The translations under genes were made by a program, and so were the position numbers. This document shows, one piece after another, positions 5,890 through 55,774 of a stretch of 64,000 nt of DNA; positions within the stretch are counted from its first letter, which is position 1, and the number at the start of each line of letters is the position of its first letter. The stretch is from Oscillospiraceae bacterium (GTDB taxonomy: Bacteria; Bacillota; Clostridia; Oscillospirales; Oscillospiraceae): assembly GCA_017429835.1 (NCBI GenBank), contig JAFROD010000013.1, positions 1 through 64,000 of the forward strand, read 5' to 3'. Under the pieces are notes generated by a model. The model searched no databases. It was given only the letters and a program-made list of their open reading frames with translations, and was not told the DNA's origin.

Positions 5890-6988
5890 AATCAAAAAGG
5901 CATACGACAACGCCGCGCCGACGCAGACGGCGGTTGTGCGGGTGTATGAGAAGCTTCTGAACCGCGCCGATGCCGCGCCGGAGCGCGAACCGCGCAGAGC
6001 GTCGCGCGTTTCCCGCCGTCTGACGCTTGCGGCGGCGGTCATCGCCGCGCTTGCAATGCTGTCCGTCGCGGGCTACGCGGCGTATCAGCGTTGGTTTTTG
6101 CCCGCGCCGGAAACCTACGAGCCGGGCAACAACGGCATTTATCGGGAGCACGGGCGCAGCGACTACGACCTTGCGGATATCGAAAGCCGTGCCGCAACGG
6201 ACGATCCGGGCGACGCGCCGCTCACCGACGAGGCGTTTATTCTGAAAGGGTTGGAAATCCTGAACGAGGTCGGTATGCCGGACGTGCGCCCGGAGCAGTT
6301 GACCGTCGTTCGACAGGAAAACCTGTACTGGGGCAGGGAGGAGGCGGAAGTACTGTTTGACAACGAAGGCGTCCGCACGTCCGTCAGATTCAATGCCGAA
6401 ACCGGACGCTTCCTCGGCATGAGCGGGATCGACTGGCAGCTCGAGGGAGCCGCCGCCTGCGGCAGCGATGAAGAAGCCGCGGCACTGGCGCGGCGCTGTT
6501 ACGCGGCGCTGCCGGTGGAACAGGGGTATACGATGACACACGTGGAGAAATACGACGCGCAGTATTGGAGCTATGATTTCAGCCGCGAGGTCGAGCCGGG
6601 CGTTTTCAACGAATATGAGACGGTGCGCGTGGCGATCAATCCGGTCTCCGGCCGGCTCACCGGCTGCACGGTGTTTTACGTTCCTCTGCTGGACGACCAC
6701 GAGCCGGGGCAGGAGAAGATCGGCGCGCAGGAGGCCGAGCAGATCATGCAAAGCGCGCTGCCCGCGCTTCTTGACGGCATGACGCTCACGAAAGCAGAGG
6801 TCGTGATCGGGCTGCCGAACTGGAACTACACGGCGTATCAGAACGAGCCGAACCGCCGTGCCTCCGACGTCACCCGATGGGCGTGGGAGTTGACCTACGA
6901 GACCCCGAACAGCGAGTTTGCCGACGTGGTCGTTCTCCTCGTGGACTGTTACACGGGCGAGCTCCTCGGCGGCGACGCGACGAAGTAA
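5879..6988 (+). CDS. Membrane partner of the ECF factor, probable anti-sigma protein
   Basis: A 369-aa protein with a short cytoplasmic N-terminus (about 50 residues), one membrane segment near residues 42-65 (RRLTLAAAVIAALAMLSVAGYAAY) and a large extracytoplasmic part with PepSY-like sections (FNAETGRFLGM, INPVSGRLTGCTVFYVP, VDCYTGELLGG). The gene overlaps the sigma factor by 11 bp, which ensures co-expression. The single-pass layout beside an ECF factor is that of an anti-sigma factor; direct sigma binding is inferred, as no zinc anti-sigma motif is seen. Confidence 0.75.
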   Translation: MRFEIKKAYDNAAPTQTAVVRVYEKLLNRADAAPEREPRRASRVSRRLTLAAAVIAALAMLSVAGYAAYQRWFLPAPETYEPGNNGIYREHGRSDYDLADIESRAATDDPGDAPLTDEAFILKGLEILNEVGMPDVRPEQLTVVRQENLYWGREEAEVLFDNEGVRTSVRFNAETGRFLGMSGIDWQLEGAAACGSDEEAAALARRCYAALPVEQGYTMTHVEKYDAQYWSYDFSREVEPGVFNEYETVRVAINPVSGRLTGCTVFYVPLLDDHEPGQEKIGAQEAEQIMQSALPALLDGMTLTKAEVVIGLPNWNYTAYQNEPNRRASDVTRWAWELTYETPNSEFADVVVLLVDCYTGELLGGDATK

Positions 6989-9405: not shown

Positions 9406-11211
9406 TCAGAACGAACGATCCTTCGTCGCGATCTCCTTCAGGCACTTGCCGAGGAATTCGTCGGGCAGCATCGCGCCGAGATCCACGCCGCCTCTGGTGC
9501 GGACGGAGACCGTGCCGTTTTCCATGTCGCGGTCGCCGATGACGAGCATGTAGGGGATCTTCTGCATCTGCGCCTCGCGGATCTTGTAGCCGAGCTTTTC
9601 GCTGCGCAGATCGCTTTCCACGCGGATGCCCGCGGCGGAGAGCTTGCTCTCCAGCTCTCTGGCATAGTCGTGGGCGCGGTCGGTGATCGGAAGGATGCGG
9701 ACCTGCGTGGGCATCATCCACAGCGGCAGCGCGCCGGCAAAGCGCTCAATCAGGTAGGCGAGCGTGCGCTCGTAGCAGCCGAGCGAGGTGCGGTGGATGA
9801 TATAGGGGATCTTCTTCTGCCCGTCCACGTCGGTGTATTCCATCCCGAACTTTTCCGCCAGCAGCATATCGACCTGAATGGTGACGATCGTGTCTTCCTT
9901 GCCGTAGACGTTCTTATACTGAATGTCGAGCTTCGGGCCGTAGAAGGCGGCCTCGTCGATGCCGATCGTGTAATCGACGTTCAGATCGTCGAGGATGGTC
10001 TTCATCGTCGCCTGCGCCAGCTCCCACTGCTCCGGCGTGCCCTCATATTTATTGTTCGGGTTGGCGGGATCCCACTGGGAGAAGCGGAACGTGCAGTTTT
10101 CCAGCATGCCGACGGTGTCGAGCACGTACTTGGCAAGCTCCAGGCAGCCCTTGAACTCTTCTTCGAGCTGCTCCGGACGCAGGACGAGGTGACCCTCGGA
10201 GATCGTGAACTGCCGCACGCGGATCAGACCGTGCATTTCGCCGGAATCCTCGTTGCGGAAGAGGGTGGACGTCTCGCCCAGCCGCATGGGAAGATCGCGG
10301 TAGGAGCGCGCGCGGTTCAGGAAGACCTGATACTGGAACGGGCAGGTCATCGGACGCAGGGCGTACATTTCCTTGCTGTCGTCGTCCGCGTCGTCGCGGT
10401 TGCCGAGCAGGAACATGCCGTCGCGGTAGTGATCCCAGTGACCGGAGATGCGGTAGAGATCGCGCTTCGCCATCAACGGGGTCTTGGTCAGAAGGTAGCC
10501 GCGCTTCTGCTCCTCGTCCTCGATCCAGCGCTGCAGGAGCTGAATGACTCTTGCGCCCTTCGGCAGCAGGATCGGCAGACCCTGACCGATGATATCGACG
10601 GTGGTGAAGAATTCCAGCTCGCGCCCGAGCTTGTTGTGGTCGCGCTTGCGGGCTTCCTCCTGCTGCAGGAGATAGGCGTCCAGCTCCTCCTTCTTCGGGA
10701 AGGCGACGCCGTAGATGCGCTGCAGCATCTTGCGCTTGGAGTCGCCGCGCCAGTAGGCGCCGCAGCACTGCGTCAGCTTGAAGGCGTTTGCCTTGATGCG
10801 GCCGGTGGAGTCCAGATGCGGGCCGGCGCACAGGTCGGTGAATTCGCCCTGCGTGTAGAAGGAGATGACCGCGTCCTCGGGCAGATCGTTGATCAGCTCG
10901 ACCTTGTAGGGCTCGCCGAGGGAGTCCATATAGGCGATCGCTTCTTCTCTGGGCTTCTCGCTGCGCACGAGCTGCAGACGCTCCTTGCAGATCTTCTTCA
11001 TCTCCGCCTCGATGGCGTCCAGGTGCTCCTGCGTAAAGGAGAAGTCGCAGTCAAAGTCGTAATACCAGCCGTTGTCGATGGACGGGCCGATCGCGAGCTT
11101 GACCTGCGGATACAGACGCTTGACCGCCTGCGCCATGACGTGCGAGCAGGTGTGCCAGTAGGTCTTGCGGTAGGCTTCGTTTTCAAAGGTATACAGATTT
11201 TCTTCGGACAT
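9406..11211 (-). CDS. thrS: Threonyl-tRNA synthetase lacking the TGS domain
   Basis: A 601-aa class II synthetase that charges tRNA-Thr. The N-terminus starts directly in the N2 editing domain (HTCSHVMAQAVKRLYP, about 18-33; later TQCCGAYWRGD). The catalytic core follows with motif 2 FRNEDSGEMHGLIRVRQF and motif 3 GCYERTLAYLIERF, then an anticodon-binding domain. The usual about 60-residue TGS domain is missing. This is not an annotation error: the ATG at 11211 has a strong RBS (CAGGAGGAAG) and the T-box terminator lies immediately upstream. Confidence 0.96.
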   Translation of the reverse strand: MSEENLYTFENEAYRKTYWHTCSHVMAQAVKRLYPQVKLAIGPSIDNGWYYDFDCDFSFTQEHLDAIEAEMKKICKERLQLVRSEKPREEAIAYMDSLGEPYKVELINDLPEDAVISFYTQGEFTDLCAGPHLDSTGRIKANAFKLTQCCGAYWRGDSKRKMLQRIYGVAFPKKEELDAYLLQQEEARKRDHNKLGRELEFFTTVDIIGQGLPILLPKGARVIQLLQRWIEDEEQKRGYLLTKTPLMAKRDLYRISGHWDHYRDGMFLLGNRDDADDDSKEMYALRPMTCPFQYQVFLNRARSYRDLPMRLGETSTLFRNEDSGEMHGLIRVRQFTISEGHLVLRPEQLEEEFKGCLELAKYVLDTVGMLENCTFRFSQWDPANPNNKYEGTPEQWELAQATMKTILDDLNVDYTIGIDEAAFYGPKLDIQYKNVYGKEDTIVTIQVDMLLAEKFGMEYTDVDGQKKIPYIIHRTSLGCYERTLAYLIERFAGALPLWMMPTQVRILPITDRAHDYARELESKLSAAGIRVESDLRSEKLGYKIREAQMQKIPYMLVIGDRDMENGTVSVRTRGGVDLGAMLPDEFLGKCLKEIATKDRSF

Positions 11212-11242
11212 AATGCTTCCTCCTGTTTTGGTAAGGGGCAAT

Positions 11243-11475
11243 AAAAAATCACCCCTGAATGATTCAGGGGTGAGAATACTCCCACGGTTCCACCCTGCTT
11301 GCAGTTTTTGCAAACTGCCGCTCGTTCGCGCGCTAACGGGCGCACCCGTCTTCCCCTACTTCGTTCAGGGAAGCGGCTCGGAAGCGGTACGTGCCGGACG
11401 GGTGCAGGAGCTTTCACCGGCCGCTCCCTCTCTGTGCATCGTATCACGGTACGTTTCTTCGTCTTCGCCGATTTC
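11243..11475 (-). ncRNA. T-box riboswitch leader of thrS
   Basis: On the minus strand the leader has a stem I with AGAGAG and GGTGAAAG loop elements closed by GGAGC/GCTCC, a stem II CTTCCC..GGGGAAG, and a stem III GCAGTTT-GCAA-AAACTGC. The T-box AGGGTGGAACCGTGGG (complement of 11281-11296) follows, then the terminator TCACCCCTGAAT/ATTCAGGGGTGA with TTTTTT (11243-11273). Uncharged tRNA-Thr would favour the antiterminator and switch thrS on. An ACC triplet in TGCACCCG is a candidate specifier, though I could not fold the specifier loop with certainty. Confidence 0.9.
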
Positions 11476-11481
11476 GTCATA

Positions 11482-11510
11482 AATATAGCACTTTTTGCGG
11501 TGGTTGTCAA
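11482..11510 (-). promoter_or_regulatory. thrS promoter
   Basis: Minus strand TTGACA (11505-11510), 17-nt spacer, TATATT (11482-11487). Transcription would begin about 265 nt before the thrS start codon, giving room for the whole T-box leader. Confidence 0.8.
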
Positions 11511-11665
11511 ATGGTTTCTTTTTTACGCTTGTTATGTTAACTAAATTGTAACCATTCCACAAGATGTAGGGTATAAACGGCAAAAATCACCACTCCATGT
11601 TGTCTTATGCTTGTTAACATAATTACGCAAAAAGTTCGGATTATGCCGGAAATTACGAAAAAAGC

Positions 11666-11693
11666 TTGACAAAATCGGAAAAAATGTTATAAT
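11666..11693 (+). promoter_or_regulatory. Promoter of the 3D-domain gene
   Basis: TTGACA (11666-11671), 16-nt spacer, TATAAT (11688-11693), about 75 bp before the start codon. The 11541-11660 stretch upstream is AT-rich and shows no gene. Confidence 0.75.
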
Positions 11694-11767
11694 TAACCCA
11701 CAGTTACAATAGAGTAACAATAGTTTCTGGTTTTGAAACCAAACACAATGGAAAGGAGGATACTCTG

Positions 11768-12865
11768 ATGCGCAGAACGGAAAAACAGACAACGAACCGT
11801 AAGAAGCTCCTGCACAGACTGATCGCGATTGCAATCATGGCTGCGATCGTCGTGGCAGCACTGTCGCTGACTGTTTTTGCACAGAACAGCTATCTGATTA
11901 CAGACGGCGATTATGTCACGGTTCACCGATCCTACAGTACAGACCCGGAAGTGGTTTTGGATGAAGCCGGTATCGAGCTGAGCGAGGAGGATACCTACAC
12001 CACAACCTATAGAAACGGCGTCAGCCGCATCGACGTCCAACGGATGCAGATGGTGACCGTCATCAATGCCGGCGAGCAGAGCGTGATCGGCACCTACGGC
12101 GAAACGGCGAAGACCCTGCTCAGCCGCATGGGCATCGTGCCCGGAACCGGCGATATTCTCTCCTGCGAGGACGACACCCCCACCTACGACGGCATGGTCA
12201 TCGAACTCAAGCACAAGGAGATCCGGCAGACCGAGTACGACAAGAGCCTACCTTACGACACGAAGTACTACGAGGATCCGGAGCTTGCTCCGGGCGAGGA
12301 AATCACCCTGATCGAAGGCGTTGACGGCGTGATCCACTACACCGCGCAGCTCGTTTACGAGAACGGCGAACTGGTTTCCGAGGAAGTCATCGACGAAGAG
12401 GCGACGACCAAGATGGTCACTCGTCTGGTCGTCAGAGGACCGGAGCGCGCGATTGACGATCAGCCGACCGCGCCTGATCATCGCAATGCGACCATTGAAG
12501 ACCCGATGAACAACGACGAGCACGCCATCGGCGGCGGCACGATCACGACGGTCTCCGGCACGTCCTACCGTTATTCGGACGTTCTGACCGTCACCTGCAC
12601 CGCGTACTCCTGCGGCGACCGCGTCGGCACGACCGCAACGGGTACCGTGGCGAGAGTCGGCGCAGTCGCAGTCGATCCGCGCTATATCCCGCTGGGTACG
12701 AAGATGTACATCGTTTCCAACGACGGCCAGTACATCTACGGCTACTGCACGGCGGAGGATACCGGCGGCTCCATCAAGGGCTACAAGATCGACCTGTATT
12801 TCGACACCTTTGACGAGTGCTGGGAGTTCGGCGTTCGCACCTGTACCGTGTACATCCTCTCATAA
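11768..12865 (+). CDS. Secreted cell-wall protein with DUF348, G5 and 3D domains (YabE/resuscitation type)
   Basis: A 365-aa exported protein. A basic N-terminus and hydrophobic segment (about 15-38, LIAIAIMAAIVVAALSLTVFA) form a signal or anchor. A DUF348 segment follows (about 42-110), then a G5-like region (LAPGEEITLIEGVDGVIHYTAQLVYENGEL, about 170-225) and a C-terminal 3D domain with its three aspartates in AVDPRYIPLGT, TAEDTGG and YKIDLYF. Such proteins are predicted peptidoglycan lytic transglycosylase-like enzymes acting in growth or spore resuscitation. RBS AAAGGAGG lies 8 nt before the ATG. Confidence 0.9.
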   Translation: MRRTEKQTTNRKKLLHRLIAIAIMAAIVVAALSLTVFAQNSYLITDGDYVTVHRSYSTDPEVVLDEAGIELSEEDTYTTTYRNGVSRIDVQRMQMVTVINAGEQSVIGTYGETAKTLLSRMGIVPGTGDILSCEDDTPTYDGMVIELKHKEIRQTEYDKSLPYDTKYYEDPELAPGEEITLIEGVDGVIHYTAQLVYENGELVSEEVIDEEATTKMVTRLVVRGPERAIDDQPTAPDHRNATIEDPMNNDEHAIGGGTITTVSGTSYRYSDVLTVTCTAYSCGDRVGTTATGTVARVGAVAVDPRYIPLGTKMYIVSNDGQYIYGYCTAEDTGGSIKGYKIDLYFDTFDECWEFGVRTCTVYILS

Positions 12866-36151: not shown

Positions 36152-36883
36152 ATGCTTCGCCCGGAATACCTCGAAGAATTACCTGACGAAATCCTTGAAC
36201 TGTTCTCGGAGGCGGAGCAGGAGATCCTTGCGGATATGGCGCGGCGGATCTCTACTTATGATTTTTGGATTCCGGCCGCCGATCATCAGAACAGGGTGCT
36301 CCGCGAAGCCGGGATTATGCAGGAGGATATCCTCACCGTCCTGTCGGCGACGACACGGAAATCGGAGGAAGAACTGCGCGACCTGATGCAGCGTGCCGGC
36401 AGTATGGCGCTGCACAACGACGAGAGCATCTATTCCGCAGGCGGCTTTCACGTGCCTTCGATCAAAGACAGCCTGCCGCTGCGGAACGTGCTGAACGCCG
36501 GATATCAAGCGACGGCGACCGAGATGGCGAACCTGTGCAGAACGACGGCGCGGACGGCGACGAAACAGTTTGAGGACGCGCTCGATCGGGCGTGGCTCAA
36601 CGTGTCAAGCGGTGCCTTCGACGCAGACGCCGCCATTCGATCAGCCGTCAAGGAACTGTCGGAAAAGGGAATTCAGTCGATTACATATCCTTCCGGCAGA
36701 ACGGACAGCATCGAAACCGCAGTTCGGCGTGCCGTCGTGACCGGCGTCAATCAGACTTCTGCGCAATTATCGCTTGAACTTATGGACGAGCTTGGCTGTG
36801 ATCTTGTCGAAGTGACGGCACATTCGGACGCCCGGCCGGAACACGCGCTGTGGCAGGGTAAAATTTATCGAAGAAAAAAATAA
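36152..36883 (+). CDS. Phage minor capsid protein, N-terminal part (interrupted)
   Basis: A 243-aa product similar to Phage_min_cap2/Mu-F-like minor head proteins: ELFSEAEQEILADMARRI, DESIYSAGGFHVPSIKDSLPLRNVLNAGYQAT, and GVNQTSAQLSLELMDELGCDLVEVTAHSDARPEHALWQGKIY. In relatives the next residues are a Ser-rich turn and YPDF; here the frame ends RRKK-stop. The missing part resumes at 38434 after a roughly 1.56-kb insertion. The truncated protein loses its conserved GWNCRH segment. It is probably non-functional unless the insert is removed or the halves assemble. Confidence 0.85.
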   Translation: MLRPEYLEELPDEILELFSEAEQEILADMARRISTYDFWIPAADHQNRVLREAGIMQEDILTVLSATTRKSEEELRDLMQRAGSMALHNDESIYSAGGFHVPSIKDSLPLRNVLNAGYQATATEMANLCRTTARTATKQFEDALDRAWLNVSSGAFDADAAIRSAVKELSEKGIQSITYPSGRTDSIETAVRRAVVTGVNQTSAQLSLELMDELGCDLVEVTAHSDARPEHALWQGKIYRRKK

Positions 36884-36891
36884 AAAACCTC

Positions 36892-36940
36892 TTGACTTTT
36901 GTGTCACCAATAGTATAATAAGAATTACGGTGACACAAAA
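36892..36940 (+). promoter_or_regulatory. Promoter and operator of the inserted cassette
   Basis: TTGACT (36892-36897), 16-nt spacer, TATAAT (36914-36919). A perfect 12-bp inverted repeat, TTTTGTGTCACC (36897-36908) and GGTGACACAAAA (36929-36940), flanks the -10, ideally placed for repression by the RHH protein encoded just downstream. Confidence 0.8.
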
Positions 36941-36953
36941 GTGAGGTGAGTAA

Positions 36954-37124
36954 ATGTCTCCGAAAACTGGAAGACCGACTTCTGAACCTAAAACACATGA
37001 GACACGCATTCGAATGTCAGACGAAGACGTTCGCATTTTGGAAATCTGTTGTAAAAAAACTGGTATGACAAAAGCGGAGGTAATTCGCAAAGGCATCCGC
37101 GAGGTTTATGAGAAGGTCAAATAA
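36954..37124 (+). CDS. Ribbon-helix-helix (CopG/Arc-like) repressor of the inserted cassette
   Basis: A 56-aa protein: MSPKTGRPTSEPKTHETRIRM, then SDEDVRILEICCKKTGMTKAEVIRKGIREVYEKVK. THETRIRMS is the DNA-binding beta strand; the two helices follow. RBS GTGAGGTGAG precedes the ATG. It is very probably an autorepressor acting at the inverted repeat around its promoter. It is too short for a standard length cut-off and easily missed. Confidence 0.82.
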   Translation: MSPKTGRPTSEPKTHETRIRMSDEDVRILEICCKKTGMTKAEVIRKGIREVYEKVK

Positions 37125-37239
37125 AAAAGAAACAGCCCGTGACCCTCGATAAGTAACGGACTGTTTCCATTGCACCAAACCAAGGAGGCTTGGTAAATAT
37201 ATTATACCACGCCTTCCTTGAAAACTCAAGGAGGTTTTT

Positions 37240-37473
37240 GTGAATAATTCAACAGATACTGAATTCGAATTGATAGATACTATTGAAACGGCTTGCGTGG
37301 AATTGGACTGTGCTATGGCGGTGCTCAGCCAAGTTCTCGAGGACTATTTTTCTGACGATGAAACAGAAAAACTCTTGAGCTTCTATGCCGATAACATTTC
37401 CAAACTGCTCAATGCAGTTGATTCTTTGCTGCGTGGAACAAAACACATGTTGCAGGACAGAATCCCAATATAA
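37240..37473 (+). CDS. Small acidic helical protein of the inserted cassette
   Basis: A 77-aa acidic protein (MNNSTDTEFELIDTIETACVELDCAMAVLSQVLEDYF...) with GTG start 5 nt after AAGGAGG. It is all-helical by pattern, with no recognised family. The preceding 115 bp hold a weak hairpin (AAACAG..CTGTTT) and a CCAAG-GAGG-CTTGG stem. It lies between the repressor and the endonuclease. Confidence 0.65.
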   Translation: MNNSTDTEFELIDTIETACVELDCAMAVLSQVLEDYFSDDETEKLLSFYADNISKLLNAVDSLLRGTKHMLQDRIPI

Positions 37474-37487
37474 GAGGGGTAAGGCAA

Positions 37488-38378
37488 ATGGGAGCTGTTA
37501 TTGATTTATCAGGGCAGGTTTTCGGAAAGCTTACTGTAGTTTCTTACGCAGGTAGCAGAAACGGCAATGGTGCGCTTTGGCTGTGCAAGTGTGACTGTGG
37601 CAACATCACAATAAAAAGTGGCAAAATGCTGAGGCACCACGGGAAATATGCTTCCTGCGGCTGCTATGACGGTAGACGCAAACGGCTGGTCGATCTGACA
37701 GGTCAACGGTTTGGCAATCTAACCGTTCTTCATAGAGTGGAGAACACCAAAGACAGCAAACCACAATGGTTGTGTCAATGCGATTGTGGTAATCAGAAGA
37801 TCGTTCAAAGCAAGCATCTGAAGAGCGGCGACGTAAAATCTTGCGGTTGCGGCAAAGGCATTAAGCGAGTTGGAAAAAGGACACAATTCACTCCTGCTTG
37901 CAGACCAATAATTGAGCTACATAGTCATAGGAACAGATTGTATAACATTTGGAGCGGTATGCATTATCGTTGTGAAAAACCAAATGCAAGCAGTTATGAA
38001 TTCTATGGCGGGCGCGGTATTTGCGTTTGTGCAGAATGGTCTGGTAAAAAAGGATTTGATCATTTTCGAGAATGGGCAGTTGCTCATGGTTATGCCGACG
38101 ATCTTGAAATTGATAGAATCGACAACGATCTTGGCTATGAGCCTGCCAATTGTAGGTGGGTCACGCATCAGGAAAACGCTTTTAACCGAAGAGCCAGAGG
38201 ACGATCAGGGATAGTTGGCGTGAGTTTCAGAAAAGACCGACCATCAGATATAGGCGCATGGCGAGCGTGTATTACAGTTGAAGGCAAATCAAAATACATT
38301 GGCACCTTCAAAACGAAAGAAGAAGCCATAGCGGCACGCAAGAAAGCAGAAATGGAGATTGGTCTCCGAAAAGAATAA
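37488..38378 (+). CDS. HNH homing endonuclease with N-terminal zinc-finger repeats and C-terminal AP2 domain
   Basis: A 296-aa protein. Two N-terminal repeats of the type DLSGQVFGKLTVV...WLCKCDCG...CGC (about 5-58 and 67-125) are Cys-rich DNA-binding modules. The HNH centre is in NIWSGMHYRCEKP...YGGRGICVCAEW...LEIDRIDNDLGYEPANCRWVTHQENAFNRR (about 150-240). A C-terminal AP2-like DNA-binding domain has GIVGVSFRKDRPSDIGAWRACI...YIGTFKTKEEA. The cassette sits in a conserved head gene, the usual lifestyle of homing nucleases. Confidence 0.88.
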   Translation: MGAVIDLSGQVFGKLTVVSYAGSRNGNGALWLCKCDCGNITIKSGKMLRHHGKYASCGCYDGRRKRLVDLTGQRFGNLTVLHRVENTKDSKPQWLCQCDCGNQKIVQSKHLKSGDVKSCGCGKGIKRVGKRTQFTPACRPIIELHSHRNRLYNIWSGMHYRCEKPNASSYEFYGGRGICVCAEWSGKKGFDHFREWAVAHGYADDLEIDRIDNDLGYEPANCRWVTHQENAFNRRARGRSGIVGVSFRKDRPSDIGAWRACITVEGKSKYIGTFKTKEEAIAARKKAEMEIGLRKE

Positions 38379-38433
38379 CGATGCAGACAGCAGGGCAGAT
38401 AGCCTTGCTGTCTTGCTATAGGTGGTGATCATA

Positions 38434-38637
38434 ATGAGTTCCAATTCACAAGATTATTCGGACTATCCGGATTTTGAATCCTCGACAGGATACGGCACCG
38501 GAGAAGGTCTTTGCGGTTGGAACTGTACAGGGCCGGCATAGTTTCGGTCCTTATACATTTCTGGTTCGCCTCGCGTATGGTCTGATGAAGAACTAGCGAA
38601 GCTCGACGAGCCGACGGTCGAATATGACGGCAAGAAG
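38434..38637 (+). pseudogene. Middle part of the minor capsid gene with two micro-indels
   Basis: From the ATG at 38434 the frame reads SSNSQDYSDYPDFESSTGYG...LCGWNC, the direct continuation of the N-terminal part ending GKIY. After the WNC codons a seven-base excess (about 38525-38531) shifts the frame into a TAG at 38539. In the shifted frame the expected RHSFGPY follows. A two-base excess near 38557 restores the original frame (GSPRVWSDEELAKLDEP). Net +9 restores frame but leaves the stop. Confidence 0.7.
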
Positions 38638-39285
38638 ATGACCGAATACGAAGCCCGCCAGAGGATGCGCTACAACGAGCGGCAGATCCGGCGCTGGAAG
38701 CGGGAAGAGGTCGCTTTGAACGCGGCGGGCCTGGACAGCAGCGAGGCAGCCGCAAAGGTCAGCGCATGGCAGGCGCGGCAGCGTGACTTCGTCAATCAGA
38801 CCGGCTTCAAGCGGGACTATGCGAGAGAGGCTATACCGAAAAACGCAGTTGCGATTTCCGAAAAATCTGCTACAATAGAAGCGATAGAGACAGAAGGTGG
38901 AATCGCTGTGCACGAAATTGGCAGGATTGATATCACGAAATATCAATGCGTTTCGGATATTATTTCTACAGATGAGGTAATAATAACGGATGAGCGTATG
39001 CAGCATATTCGCGAAAATCATCCGGGCGCTTATGAAAGAATTGCGCCATATTTACAAATTGCTTTAGGTGAACCAGATTATATTCTGGAAGATAAGCATC
39101 CCGATTCAGCATTAGTGCTGAAACTCGTAGAAGAAAATGATTTGCGTATTCAAATCGTCTTGCGCCTTCATACTTCGCAAGACAAAGAAGGCTATAAGAA
39201 CTCTATTATTTCTGCATGGGATATTAGTCAAGAACGCTGGAGAAACTATATTAAAAACAAAAAAGTGCTTTACAAACGTGAATAA
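38638..39285 (+). CDS. Minor capsid protein C-terminal part with PBECR-like nuclease domain
   Basis: A 215-aa open frame from the first usable ATG. Residues 1-65 finish the minor capsid protein (MTEYEARQRMRYNERQIRRWKREE). Residues about 105-215 (ITDERMQHIRENHPGAYERIAPYLQIALGEPDYILED...LRIQIVLRLHTS...NSIISAWDISQERWRNYIKNKKVLYK) match phage Barnase-EndoU-ColicinE5/D-RelE-like nuclease domains fused to phage head proteins. It may cleave host RNA on injection. With no RBS before this ATG, expression is doubtful. Confidence 0.72.
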   Translation: MTEYEARQRMRYNERQIRRWKREEVALNAAGLDSSEAAAKVSAWQARQRDFVNQTGFKRDYAREAIPKNAVAISEKSATIEAIETEGGIAVHEIGRIDITKYQCVSDIISTDEVIITDERMQHIRENHPGAYERIAPYLQIALGEPDYILEDKHPDSALVLKLVEENDLRIQIVLRLHTSQDKEGYKNSIISAWDISQERWRNYIKNKKVLYKRE

Positions 39286-39297
39286 TTCTGGTATTAT
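39269..39297 (+). promoter_or_regulatory. Promoter of the structured RNA
   Basis: TTTACA (39269-39274), 17-nt spacer, TATTAT (39292-39297). It overlaps the last codons of the minor capsid gene, and transcription would begin near 39304. Confidence 0.65.
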
Positions 39298-39302
39298 ATA
39301 CA

Positions 39303-39494
39303 TAGGGTAGAGAGGACTTTGAGGTGGTAAATTTCGTTGCGACCACACGCCGATGGCATGACAAGGGGAAACCCTGAGAGATGCGGGAGATGCGACGCCC
39401 GCCAAAGTCCAAGACCAATGGGGCCATAGAAATATGGCCCCGCCGGTCTACTTAGAGAAACCACCAATCCGGTTTTGCGGATCGGTGGTTTTTC
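39303..39494 (+). ncRNA. Candidate structured non-coding RNA of unknown family
   Basis: A 190-nt gene-free stretch with its own promoter and terminator. Domain A is closed by a perfect 8-bp stem, GGACTTTG (39314-39321) with CAAAGTCC (39403-39410). Inside are GTGGT/ACCAC (39324-39346), GCAT/ATGC (39356, 39381) and an AGGG-GAAA-CCCT GNRA hairpin (39364-39375). Domain B is GACC..GGGGCCAT-AGAAAT-ATGGCCCC..GGTC (39413-39448). It ends in a terminator AAACCACC..GGTGGTTTTT (39458-39493). It does not match any riboswitch, ribozyme or intron core that I can recall. Confidence 0.6.
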
Positions 39495-39519
39495 TATGCA
39501 CAACCGAATAGTGTTGATC

Positions 39520-39550
39520 AAACCACGATGCTTCTGCACCGTGGTTTTTT
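39520..39550 (+). terminator. Second terminator before the scaffold gene
   Basis: AAACCACG..CGTGGTTT with six T. Two consecutive terminators between head genes is unusual and implies that late transcription must pass them by antitermination or start anew. Confidence 0.65.
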
Positions 39551-39581
39551 CATACCCATTTTTGAGAACAGGAGGAACTAT

Positions 39582-40124
39582 ATGGATTTTCTGAAAGAAC
39601 TTTTCAACGGGCAGTCGCTTTCGTATGAGCAGCTCGAAGCCGCCGCGAAAGCGAAGGGCCTTCAGGTCGTGAACGCTGCGGGCGGCGCGTACGTTCCGAA
39701 GACGGACGTCGATCACCTGAACGGTCAGATCACCACGCTGACGGGTCAGCTCGGCGAGGCGAACAAGAAGCTCGAGGGCTACGACCCGAACTGGAGGCAG
39801 ACCGCAGAGGCGGCAAGTCAGAAGCTCCAGCAGGAGCGCTTCGACTTCGCGATTGAGAAGGGGGTCGAGGCAGCGAAGCCCAGAAACGTAAAGGCGGTCC
39901 TTGCGCTGATCGACCGCAGCAAATTGAAGTTCGCCGATGAGGAGGTCATCGGTCTTGATAAGCAGCTGAAGGAACTCAAAGAGAATGAGGATACGGCATT
40001 CCTCTTTGGAGAGCAGCAGCCGATCAAGACGGGACTTTCCCATCAGAACGGACAGGAAGGCGCTCCTGATAAGAAAGACGCCGCAAATAATGCTCTCAGA
40101 GCAATTTTCAGAGGAGGAAACTAA
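39582..40124 (+). CDS. Phage scaffold protein, GP20-like
   Basis: A 180-aa protein of the phage minor structural protein GP20 family. MDFLKELFNGQSLSYEQLEAAAKAKGLQVVN start, then a coiled-coil (HLNGQITTLTGQLGEANKKLEGYD), and the family block FDFAIEKGVEAAKPRNVKAVLALIDRSKL. It guides procapsid assembly and is lost on maturation. RBS CAGGAGGAAC; the capsid gene starts 4 bp later. Confidence 0.9.
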   Translation: MDFLKELFNGQSLSYEQLEAAAKAKGLQVVNAAGGAYVPKTDVDHLNGQITTLTGQLGEANKKLEGYDPNWRQTAEAASQKLQQERFDFAIEKGVEAAKPRNVKAVLALIDRSKLKFADEEVIGLDKQLKELKENEDTAFLFGEQQPIKTGLSHQNGQEGAPDKKDAANNALRAIFRGGN

Positions 40125-54887: not shown

Positions 54888-55454
54888 TCAATACCGGTCG
54901 TCGCCGAGCTTCTTGCGGCGGAGATAGATGTTGAAGTCAAAGCCGCGTCTGACGCGGCAGTAATCACAGTCGTCCTTTTCCATCTGCAGCGGGTCTGCGC
55001 GACGGATGACGTGAACGGGGGAAGTGATGAACTGCTGCGCGCAGACCGGGCAGAGGCAAAGCTCCAGGTCTGGCTTTTGCATCGACTTTGCGCGGATCTT
55101 TCGTAAGCCGATGCTGTAGGCTGCAGCGCGATCGATTCTCCGCATACACTCCGGGGAGATATGCCCGATATAGTCGCCGAGCGTCTGCTTGTCTACGGTT
55201 TTTACCTGCTCCAGCAGAGCCATCGACGGCTCTGCCAAGCCGAACCTTGCGCCGATATATGCGTGGACCGGCAGGTTCGTTTTCTTGATTTCGCTTGTGA
55301 TTGCAGCAACGATCACGGTGGGCGATGTGGCGTTGCCCTTGTTGTTTTGGATTACGATACCGGGGCGGATAAAGTTCTGGACGGAACCGATATTATAGCC
55401 AAAATTGACGTAGTAAAGATCGCCGCGGCGAATCTTCTGTTCTTTTTGTTTCAA
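54888..55454 (-). CDS. PemK/MazF-like toxin-domain protein with zinc-ribbon extension
   Basis: A 188-aa protein. Residues about 8-120 are a PemK/MazF domain (IRRGDLYYVNFGYNIGSVQNFIRPGIVIQNNKGNATSPTVIVAAIT; EPSMALLEQVKTVDKQTL). The C-terminal about 65 residues carry CLCPVCAQQF and CDYC, a probable zinc knuckle. MazF-type proteins cut mRNA; no separate antitoxin gene is evident beside it, so the extension may control activity or it may act as a regulator. The start TTG 55454 follows GAGGAAG. Confidence 0.82.
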   Translation of the reverse strand: MKQKEQKIRRGDLYYVNFGYNIGSVQNFIRPGIVIQNNKGNATSPTVIVAAITSEIKKTNLPVHAYIGARFGLAEPSMALLEQVKTVDKQTLGDYIGHISPECMRRIDRAAAYSIGLRKIRAKSMQKPDLELCLCPVCAQQFITSPVHVIRRADPLQMEKDDCDYCRVRRGFDFNIYLRRKKLGDDRY

Positions 55455-55663
55455 GTTGATCTTCCTCTCTGAATTATGTAAGCAGACCGCGGGTTGGCGG
55501 TCTGCATTGTTGTTTTTTGGGAATTCACACATTTGCCCCCGGCGCCCCTGTGAAGCGGGAAGTCATCAAGCTGCGATTTGCTGATCGCAACACGGGAATC
55601 GCACCCCTCCGCCGTTCTGACCGAGCTGCCCAATGCTGTGACGCGTTCAAGACAGGAGTATCA

Positions 55664-55774
55664 TTATTTCTTCTGACTGTCATCGCCGTCCCGGTAGCAA
55701 TCCGGCACCTGCAGCAGGTTCTTCCGCTCGCTTCCGTTTGGAAGGTCGTCGCGCACCCGACTGTCGTGGCTCAC
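55664..55774 (-). CDS. Possible 36-aa protein of the second element
   Basis: GTG start with GACGAGG nine bases upstream encodes SHDSRVRDDLPNGSERKNLLQVPDCYRDGDDSQKK. The composition is protein-like and similar short products occur in clostridial elements as far as I recall. The surrounding stretch 55455-55899 otherwise holds no supported gene. Confidence 0.35.
   Translation of the reverse strand: MSHDSRVRDDLPNGSERKNLLQVPDCYRDGDDSQKK

Follow-up and report, generated by a model that had tools for sequence, protein, structure and literature searches.

The small structured RNA encoded just downstream of a phage nuclease gene in an Oscillospiraceae genome is a member of the skipping-rope family (Rfam RF02924), and it probably serves as an antitoxin or immunity RNA for that nuclease, a predicted BECR-fold ribonuclease. 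This reading, to which we give a probability of roughly 0.7, draws on comparative sequence analysis; the RNA would act much as type III antitoxins do, with unrelated parts and in the opposite gene order. The window, as the whole stretch of DNA that was analyzed is called here, is 64,000 nucleotides long, and the RNA lies in the head operon of a prophage within it.

A skipping-rope RNA with its own promoter and terminator

The nuclease gene, the RNA and their signals were found at the following window positions:

38638..39285 (+): open reading frame of the proposed toxin; it encodes the C-terminal portion of a minor head protein (Pfam PF06152, 49 bits) together with the PBECR2 nuclease domain, which is intact (at about 38911-39276; PF18810, 44.9 bits)
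39269..39297 (+): promoter of the skipping-rope RNA, with TTTACA at 39269-39274, a 17-nt spacer and TATTAT at 39292-39297; its -35 box falls within the final codons of the nuclease reading frame
39314..39410 (+): conserved core of the skipping-rope RNA (RF02924), the proposed RNA antitoxin (cmscan 52.3 bits, cut-off 36.7; own-genome E 1.2e-11; model R1 101.7 bits)
39314..39321 (+): 5' arm of the closing stem P1, 8 bp with 39403-39410; in a set of 96 distinct relatives, 8 of 8 pairs had changed on both sides
39324..39346 (+): hairpin P2, stem 39324-39328 / 39342-39346, from the covariation analysis
39335..39340 (+): 5' arm of the kissing loop (pseudoknot), CGUUGC, with its partner GCGACG at 39392-39397
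39364..39375 (+): GAAA (GNRA) hairpin, seen in the window sequence
39383..39402 (+): hairpin P5, stem 39383-39387 / 39398-39402, whose loop holds the 3' arm of the kissing loop
39412..39449 (+): extra long hairpin, private to the window; outside the conserved RNA and missing from relatives
39453..39496 (+): intrinsic terminator of the RNA, a stem-loop in the sequence; most toxin-linked copies are also terminator-ended
39522..39549 (+): second terminator-like hairpin, from sequence inspection; a same-genus relative has one too

An earlier note on this DNA had described an independently promoted structured RNA, and that description was right. The promoter, the 8-bp closing stem, the GNRA hairpin and the two terminators that it had named were all present, and the stretch from 39300 to 39500 had a predicted folding energy of -91.9 kcal/mol versus -59.2 kcal/mol in shuffled sequences (z -7.0, with none of the 200 shuffles as low). 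The second strong stem-loop domain that the note had also claimed exists as a hairpin at 39412-39449, but it is not conserved; it falls outside the conserved RNA because in relatives a terminator comes almost immediately after the closing stem. The RNA in the window is real: promoter-driven, terminator-ended, structured and strongly covarying. Its promoter makes it plausible that the lysogen expresses it constitutively.

The earlier note was mistaken in holding that no known RNA matched. The Rfam scan gave a confident match to skipping-rope, covering the full model (1-80) well above the gathering score, and an unclassified RNA was ruled out by this match. The other Rfam matches were to microRNAs and a snoRNA at E values of 0.015 or worse, mostly on the terminator hairpin, and were attributed to chance. 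Skipping-rope was reportedly first described by Weinberg et al. in 2017. No function was assigned to the family in the literature found; the original description lay outside that search and may already note a neighboring gene. Rfam catalogues skipping-rope as an sRNA, and it was the example of a pseudoknot with covariation chosen for Rfam 14 (PMC7779021 Fig. 3).

Compensatory changes in homologues, which the earlier note had named as a check on the structure, were abundant. Among 35 relatives, 99.0% of the cells in 30 base pairs were standard pairs, 19 pairs had changed on both sides, and there were 139 double-change cells versus 34 in shuffles. A second alignment comprised 96 distinct sequences, the majority located by way of the protein, and was fitted to nested stems by a model that does not include the kissing loop; in it, 98.8% were standard, 24 pairs had changed on both sides, and there were 358 double-change cells versus 86 in shuffles (0 of 500 shuffles as high). 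The kissing loop itself was paired in 98.4% of cells, and four of its six pairs had changed on both sides; its letters varied widely with the pairing kept. A covarying pseudoknot is expected of RF02924, and the kissing loop is a candidate counterpart of the pk_1 of Rfam.

Sampling covered the bacterial phylum of the window and viral contigs. Skipping-rope was present in 26 of 300 genomes from the family of the window, 27 of 295 from its order, and 28 of 398 from its phylum, or about 7 to 9% of the species of the phylum among the genomes sampled; none of the 14 control genomes contained it. Several genomes had at least three copies. In total, 114 copies were gathered, 98 from genomes and 16 from viral contigs. 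A nucleotide search of a phage collection returned one short piece in one record, and a protein search of the same collection returned one record with the nuclease domain (MT835941), which also had the RNA. There was no match in the plasmids searched with the protein.

Linkage between the RNA and PBECR nucleases

Neighboring proteins were clustered with no partner chosen beforehand, from the five nearest open reading frames on either side of each of the 114 copies. The largest cluster, drawn from 48 genomes, had 60 proteins, of which 53 were encoded immediately upstream of the RNA on the same strand; the next-largest had 8 members, and no conserved protein family was found downstream of the RNA in this clustering. 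Relatives of the partner protein were classified by Pfam as PBECR2 or PBECR3, and they were either the C-terminal part of phage minor head proteins or stand-alone. A six-frame profile search around the 111 testable copies located the domain upstream in 64 cases (56 full and 8 partial) and in convergent orientation in 2, and did not find it in 45.

The linkage also held in the other direction. All 15 PF18810 genes in 197 genomes of the order had an adjacent RNA, 13 listed by Rfam and 2 identified by eye and with model R1; in genomes G329 and G438 the RNA was present though no Rfam match was listed. In 398 genomes of the phylum, the RNA was adjacent in 11 of 11 PF18810 matches above the Pfam cut-off and in 2 of 4 below it, and the two weak matches without an adjacent RNA were in G889 and in G935, where an RNA was about 1.9 kb away. 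In the union of the two genome samples, 22 of 22 PBECR2 genes above the cut-off had the RNA.

A search with the protein only, for which a set of closer sequences served as query because the PBECR types as a whole differ too much for such a locus search, provided 80 genome loci (the best 80 of 214, mostly of the PBECR2 type) and 39 viral loci. Model R1 placed the RNA immediately 3' of the nuclease gene in 79 of the 79 testable loci among these best 80 of 214 and in 37 of 38 viral loci (116 of 117 overall). The sole exception was a viral locus (L230) in which DNA had been inserted just after the -10 box of the RNA, and the same contig (IMGVR_UViG_2857266821_000005) has a second copy of the toxin end (L342) with an RNA. 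By eye, the inserted DNA looks transposon-like.

Not every PBECR domain had the RNA. In the 398 genomes of the phylum, the RNA accompanied 13 of 13 small or C-terminal versions of PBECR3 (PF18812) versus 0 of 6 versions inside large polyvalent proteins, a set that includes one locus (in G881) where more protein follows and then the contig ends. Loci of this RNA-less kind, with PBECR3 within large polyvalent proteins, include L343, L353, L355, L357, and L363. Because of this difference, the RNA can be said to track toxin-like architecture rather than the domain as such.

Usually there was one RNA per locus, and 11 of the 116 loci had more than one. Orphan RNAs had a median best identity of 0.82 to toxin-linked RNAs elsewhere, and tandem second RNAs 0.90, a resemblance that would be expected of immunity banks. 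One orphan skipping-rope was seen at 6524-6616 of a 104-kb viral contig (L035), near a tRNA cluster; two drum RNAs (RF02958) are encoded at 9598-11897 of that contig.

The partner nuclease

The PBECR2 domain in the window scored well above its Pfam cut-off of 27.1 bits, and a profile search of the genome placed it at 38911-39276. Together, 36152-36883 and 38638-39285 correspond to Phage_min_cap2 plus PBECR2. The minor head protein gene is split (36152-38640) by an inserted stretch at about 36870-38430, and there is a further frame break near 38528-38541. The inserted stretch contains a promoter with a dyad, a short open reading frame (36954-37124) reading like a ribbon-helix-helix regulator, another open reading frame, and a 296-aa open reading frame (37488-38378) that resembles a homing endonuclease and had no Pfam match. 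Neither the PBECR2 domain nor the RNA is disrupted. The insertion divides the head gene, and therefore the delivered fusion may not be made in this particular phage.

An AF2 model of the PBECR2 domain had a pLDDT of 93 and a pTM of 0.87. The top rows from VIA-align were a Salmonella toxin-antitoxin complex (Z 7.7) and the RNase toxin BrnT (Z 7.4, rmsd 2.6 over 76 residues), followed by a contact-dependent inhibition toxin (Z 5.8) and RelE (Z 5.2); no Foldseek match reached an E value of 0.001. Taken alone, the match in fold is of moderate strength, because all of the VIA-align Z scores are under 8. Taken together, the VIA-align matches point with moderate strength to one fold class, in agreement with Iyer et al. 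2017 (PMC5512222), where PBECR domains are predicted RNases that also occur in MuF fusions.

Constraint on the promoter and presence of a terminator

The RNA started a median of 31 nt after the toxin stop codon (116 loci), and a TTTACA box followed at 17-19 nt spacing by a TANNNT box was found in 109 of the 116 loci found through the protein. The -35 box coincides with the final Leu-Tyr-Lys codons of the toxin. At this spot the Tyr codon was TAC in 103 of 105 cases and the Leu codon CTT in 102 of 105, versus 141 of 598 and 144 of 700, respectively, in the rest of these genes. Judged by this codon use, the -35 box of the RNA constrains the last codons of the nuclease, and the promoter is under selection. 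A terminator followed 89% of the toxin-linked copies, versus 10% in shuffles; among the orphan RNAs, the promoter was kept in 55% and the terminator in 77%.

Joint exchange of the toxin end and the RNA

According to alignments of related loci, at least three exchanges have replaced the C-terminus of the toxin and the RNA together, as a single cassette with near-identical sequence on either side. The window and a genome of the same genus (G243, locus L072/L338) were mostly 84-98% identical over 38631-38930 and 39481-39880, versus only 28-72% over 39031-39480, which is the toxin end plus the RNA. Two Monoglobus genomes (L332 and L337) were about 96% identical over kilobases on both flanks and differed as a block from about codon 33 of the toxin to just past the RNA. 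The same replacement of the cassette, with shorter flanks, was apparent between L252/L253 and L336.

No pair of loci had toxins more than 80% identical and RNAs less than 75% identical. Across all types, distances between toxins correlated with distances between RNAs (Mantel r 0.78, 0 of 2000 permutations as high). The replaced cassettes are the stronger evidence, because linkage alone yields some correlation.

Proposed function and alternatives

The role of antitoxin RNA for the adjacent PBECR-like nuclease, one of several suggested by the earlier note, is strongly supported by linkage in both directions and by joint exchange, with neutralization being what we infer. A BECR-fold ribonuclease (PBECR2 or PBECR3) would be the payload at the C-terminus of a head protein of the phage, or would be made as a small stand-alone protein. 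Skipping-rope would be transcribed from its own sigma-70-type promoter, overlapping the end of the nuclease gene, to its own terminator, and the kissing loop between two hairpins would hold the fold. Most likely, the folded RNA binds the cognate nuclease and blocks it, in the way that ToxI acts on ToxN. The RNA would shield a lysogenic cell both from its own toxin, which is expressed late, and from the toxin that related phages inject, and orphan and tandem RNAs may confer immunity to the toxins of other phages. An antidote is favored because no PBECR2 gene above the cut-off was seen without the RNA in the genome samples, and RNAs without a toxin were common. The 45 of 111 RNAs with no nearby nuclease are compatible with orphan antidotes and also with an RNA that has some second role.

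Joint inheritance and exchange would also be expected if the RNA were an obligate cofactor or guide that forms an active ribonucleoprotein with the PBECR nuclease and sets its activity or its choice of target. The linkage and the distance correlation agree with such a role, as do the hypervariable letters of the kissing loop that are kept in pairing. However, those variable letters are paired within the RNA and are therefore not free to act as a guide, the RNA has a promoter of its own, and many copies persist without a nuclease. BECR-fold RNases of the BrnT and RelE types work without an RNA cofactor, to our knowledge. This explanation is considered unlikely.

An antisense RNA that base-pairs with the toxin mRNA, as in type I systems, would also adjoin its toxin gene, but predicted duplexes were no stronger for cognate pairs (-42.9 kcal/mol) than for non-cognate pairs (-43.3 kcal/mol), and the fold is rigid and strongly covarying, which makes this role very improbable. 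The position of the RNA between the minor head protein and scaffold genes, in the window and in several phages, could suggest an element of the head operon, either an attenuator or the packaging RNA that the earlier note had listed. The packaging role found no support: stand-alone PBECR genes outside head operons equally have the RNA, many orphans are elsewhere, and the gene downstream varies, so that a head-operon element has very little chance of being correct. That a general small RNA merely hitch-hikes next to PBECR genes, as the orphan copies might suggest, is scarcely credible given its presence at every above-cut-off PBECR2 gene in the samples, the constant spacing, the synonymous codon constraint at the promoter, and the joint exchange.

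Beyond the antidote for a single nuclease, skipping-rope may be a widespread class of immunity RNA against the head nucleases of temperate phages, in which the catalytic end and the RNA are swapped as a cassette, orphans are immunity banks, and some phages with no nuclease use the RNAs as counter-defence. This broader proposal is tentative, at somewhat short of even odds.

Relationship to known systems

The arrangement resembles type III toxin-antitoxin systems (ToxIN, CptIN, TenpIN; AbiF/RCd22) in that a small RNase-like toxin adjoins a structured RNA, by which neutralization is proposed here, and in the pseudoknot (that of ToxI), the link to phages and the terminator-ended RNA. In the known systems, the RNA is an array of tandem short repeats upstream of the toxin and co-transcribed with it (PMC12373285). 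Here, in contrast, a single RNA of about 100 nt lies downstream under a promoter of its own, and a PBECR (BECR-fold) domain takes the place of a toxin from the ToxN or Abi_2 family. The type III layout of an upstream, co-transcribed RNA array separated from the toxin by a terminator was not found; the RNA follows the stop codon by about 31 nt.

The MuF polymorphic toxins of temperate phages (Jamet et al. 2017, PMC5576092) likewise have a C-terminal toxin on a minor head protein encoded just after the portal gene, and their immunity factor is expected to lie downstream. Here too, the minor head protein is conserved and its C-terminal toxin varies, with ends swapped between near-identical flanks. 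Small downstream open reading frames were sought as immunity proteins for the MuF toxins in that study, but no conserved protein family was found directly downstream in the present loci, and the candidate immunity factor in that place is an RNA. The PBECR domains described among polyvalent proteins by Iyer et al. 2017 (PMC5512222) are the same Pfam domains, with the same RNase prediction and MuF fusions; the available parts of that paper mention no RNA partner, and the PBECR3 domains in large polyvalent proteins were without the RNA here. RF02924 corresponds to the RNA in sequence, stems, pseudoknot and the small terminator-ended form, and to it are added here the partner nuclease, the fixed promoter and the joint exchange.

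Skipping-rope, a family with no assigned function, is thereby given a specific partner and a role that can be tested directly. If the proposed role is correct, RNA antitoxins include a kind that is not related to ToxIN, and an RNA can serve as the immunity factor for a polymorphic toxin delivered by phages. This would explain why searches for downstream immunity proteins at head-protein toxins may miss the factor.

Two other RNAs were seen in the window. A T-box leader (RF00230) at 11263-11474 (-) is ordinary. A pemK RNA (RF02913, 68 bits) at 55590-55667 (-) lies just upstream of a PemK-like open reading frame at 54888-55532 (-), a second pair of RNA and toxin.
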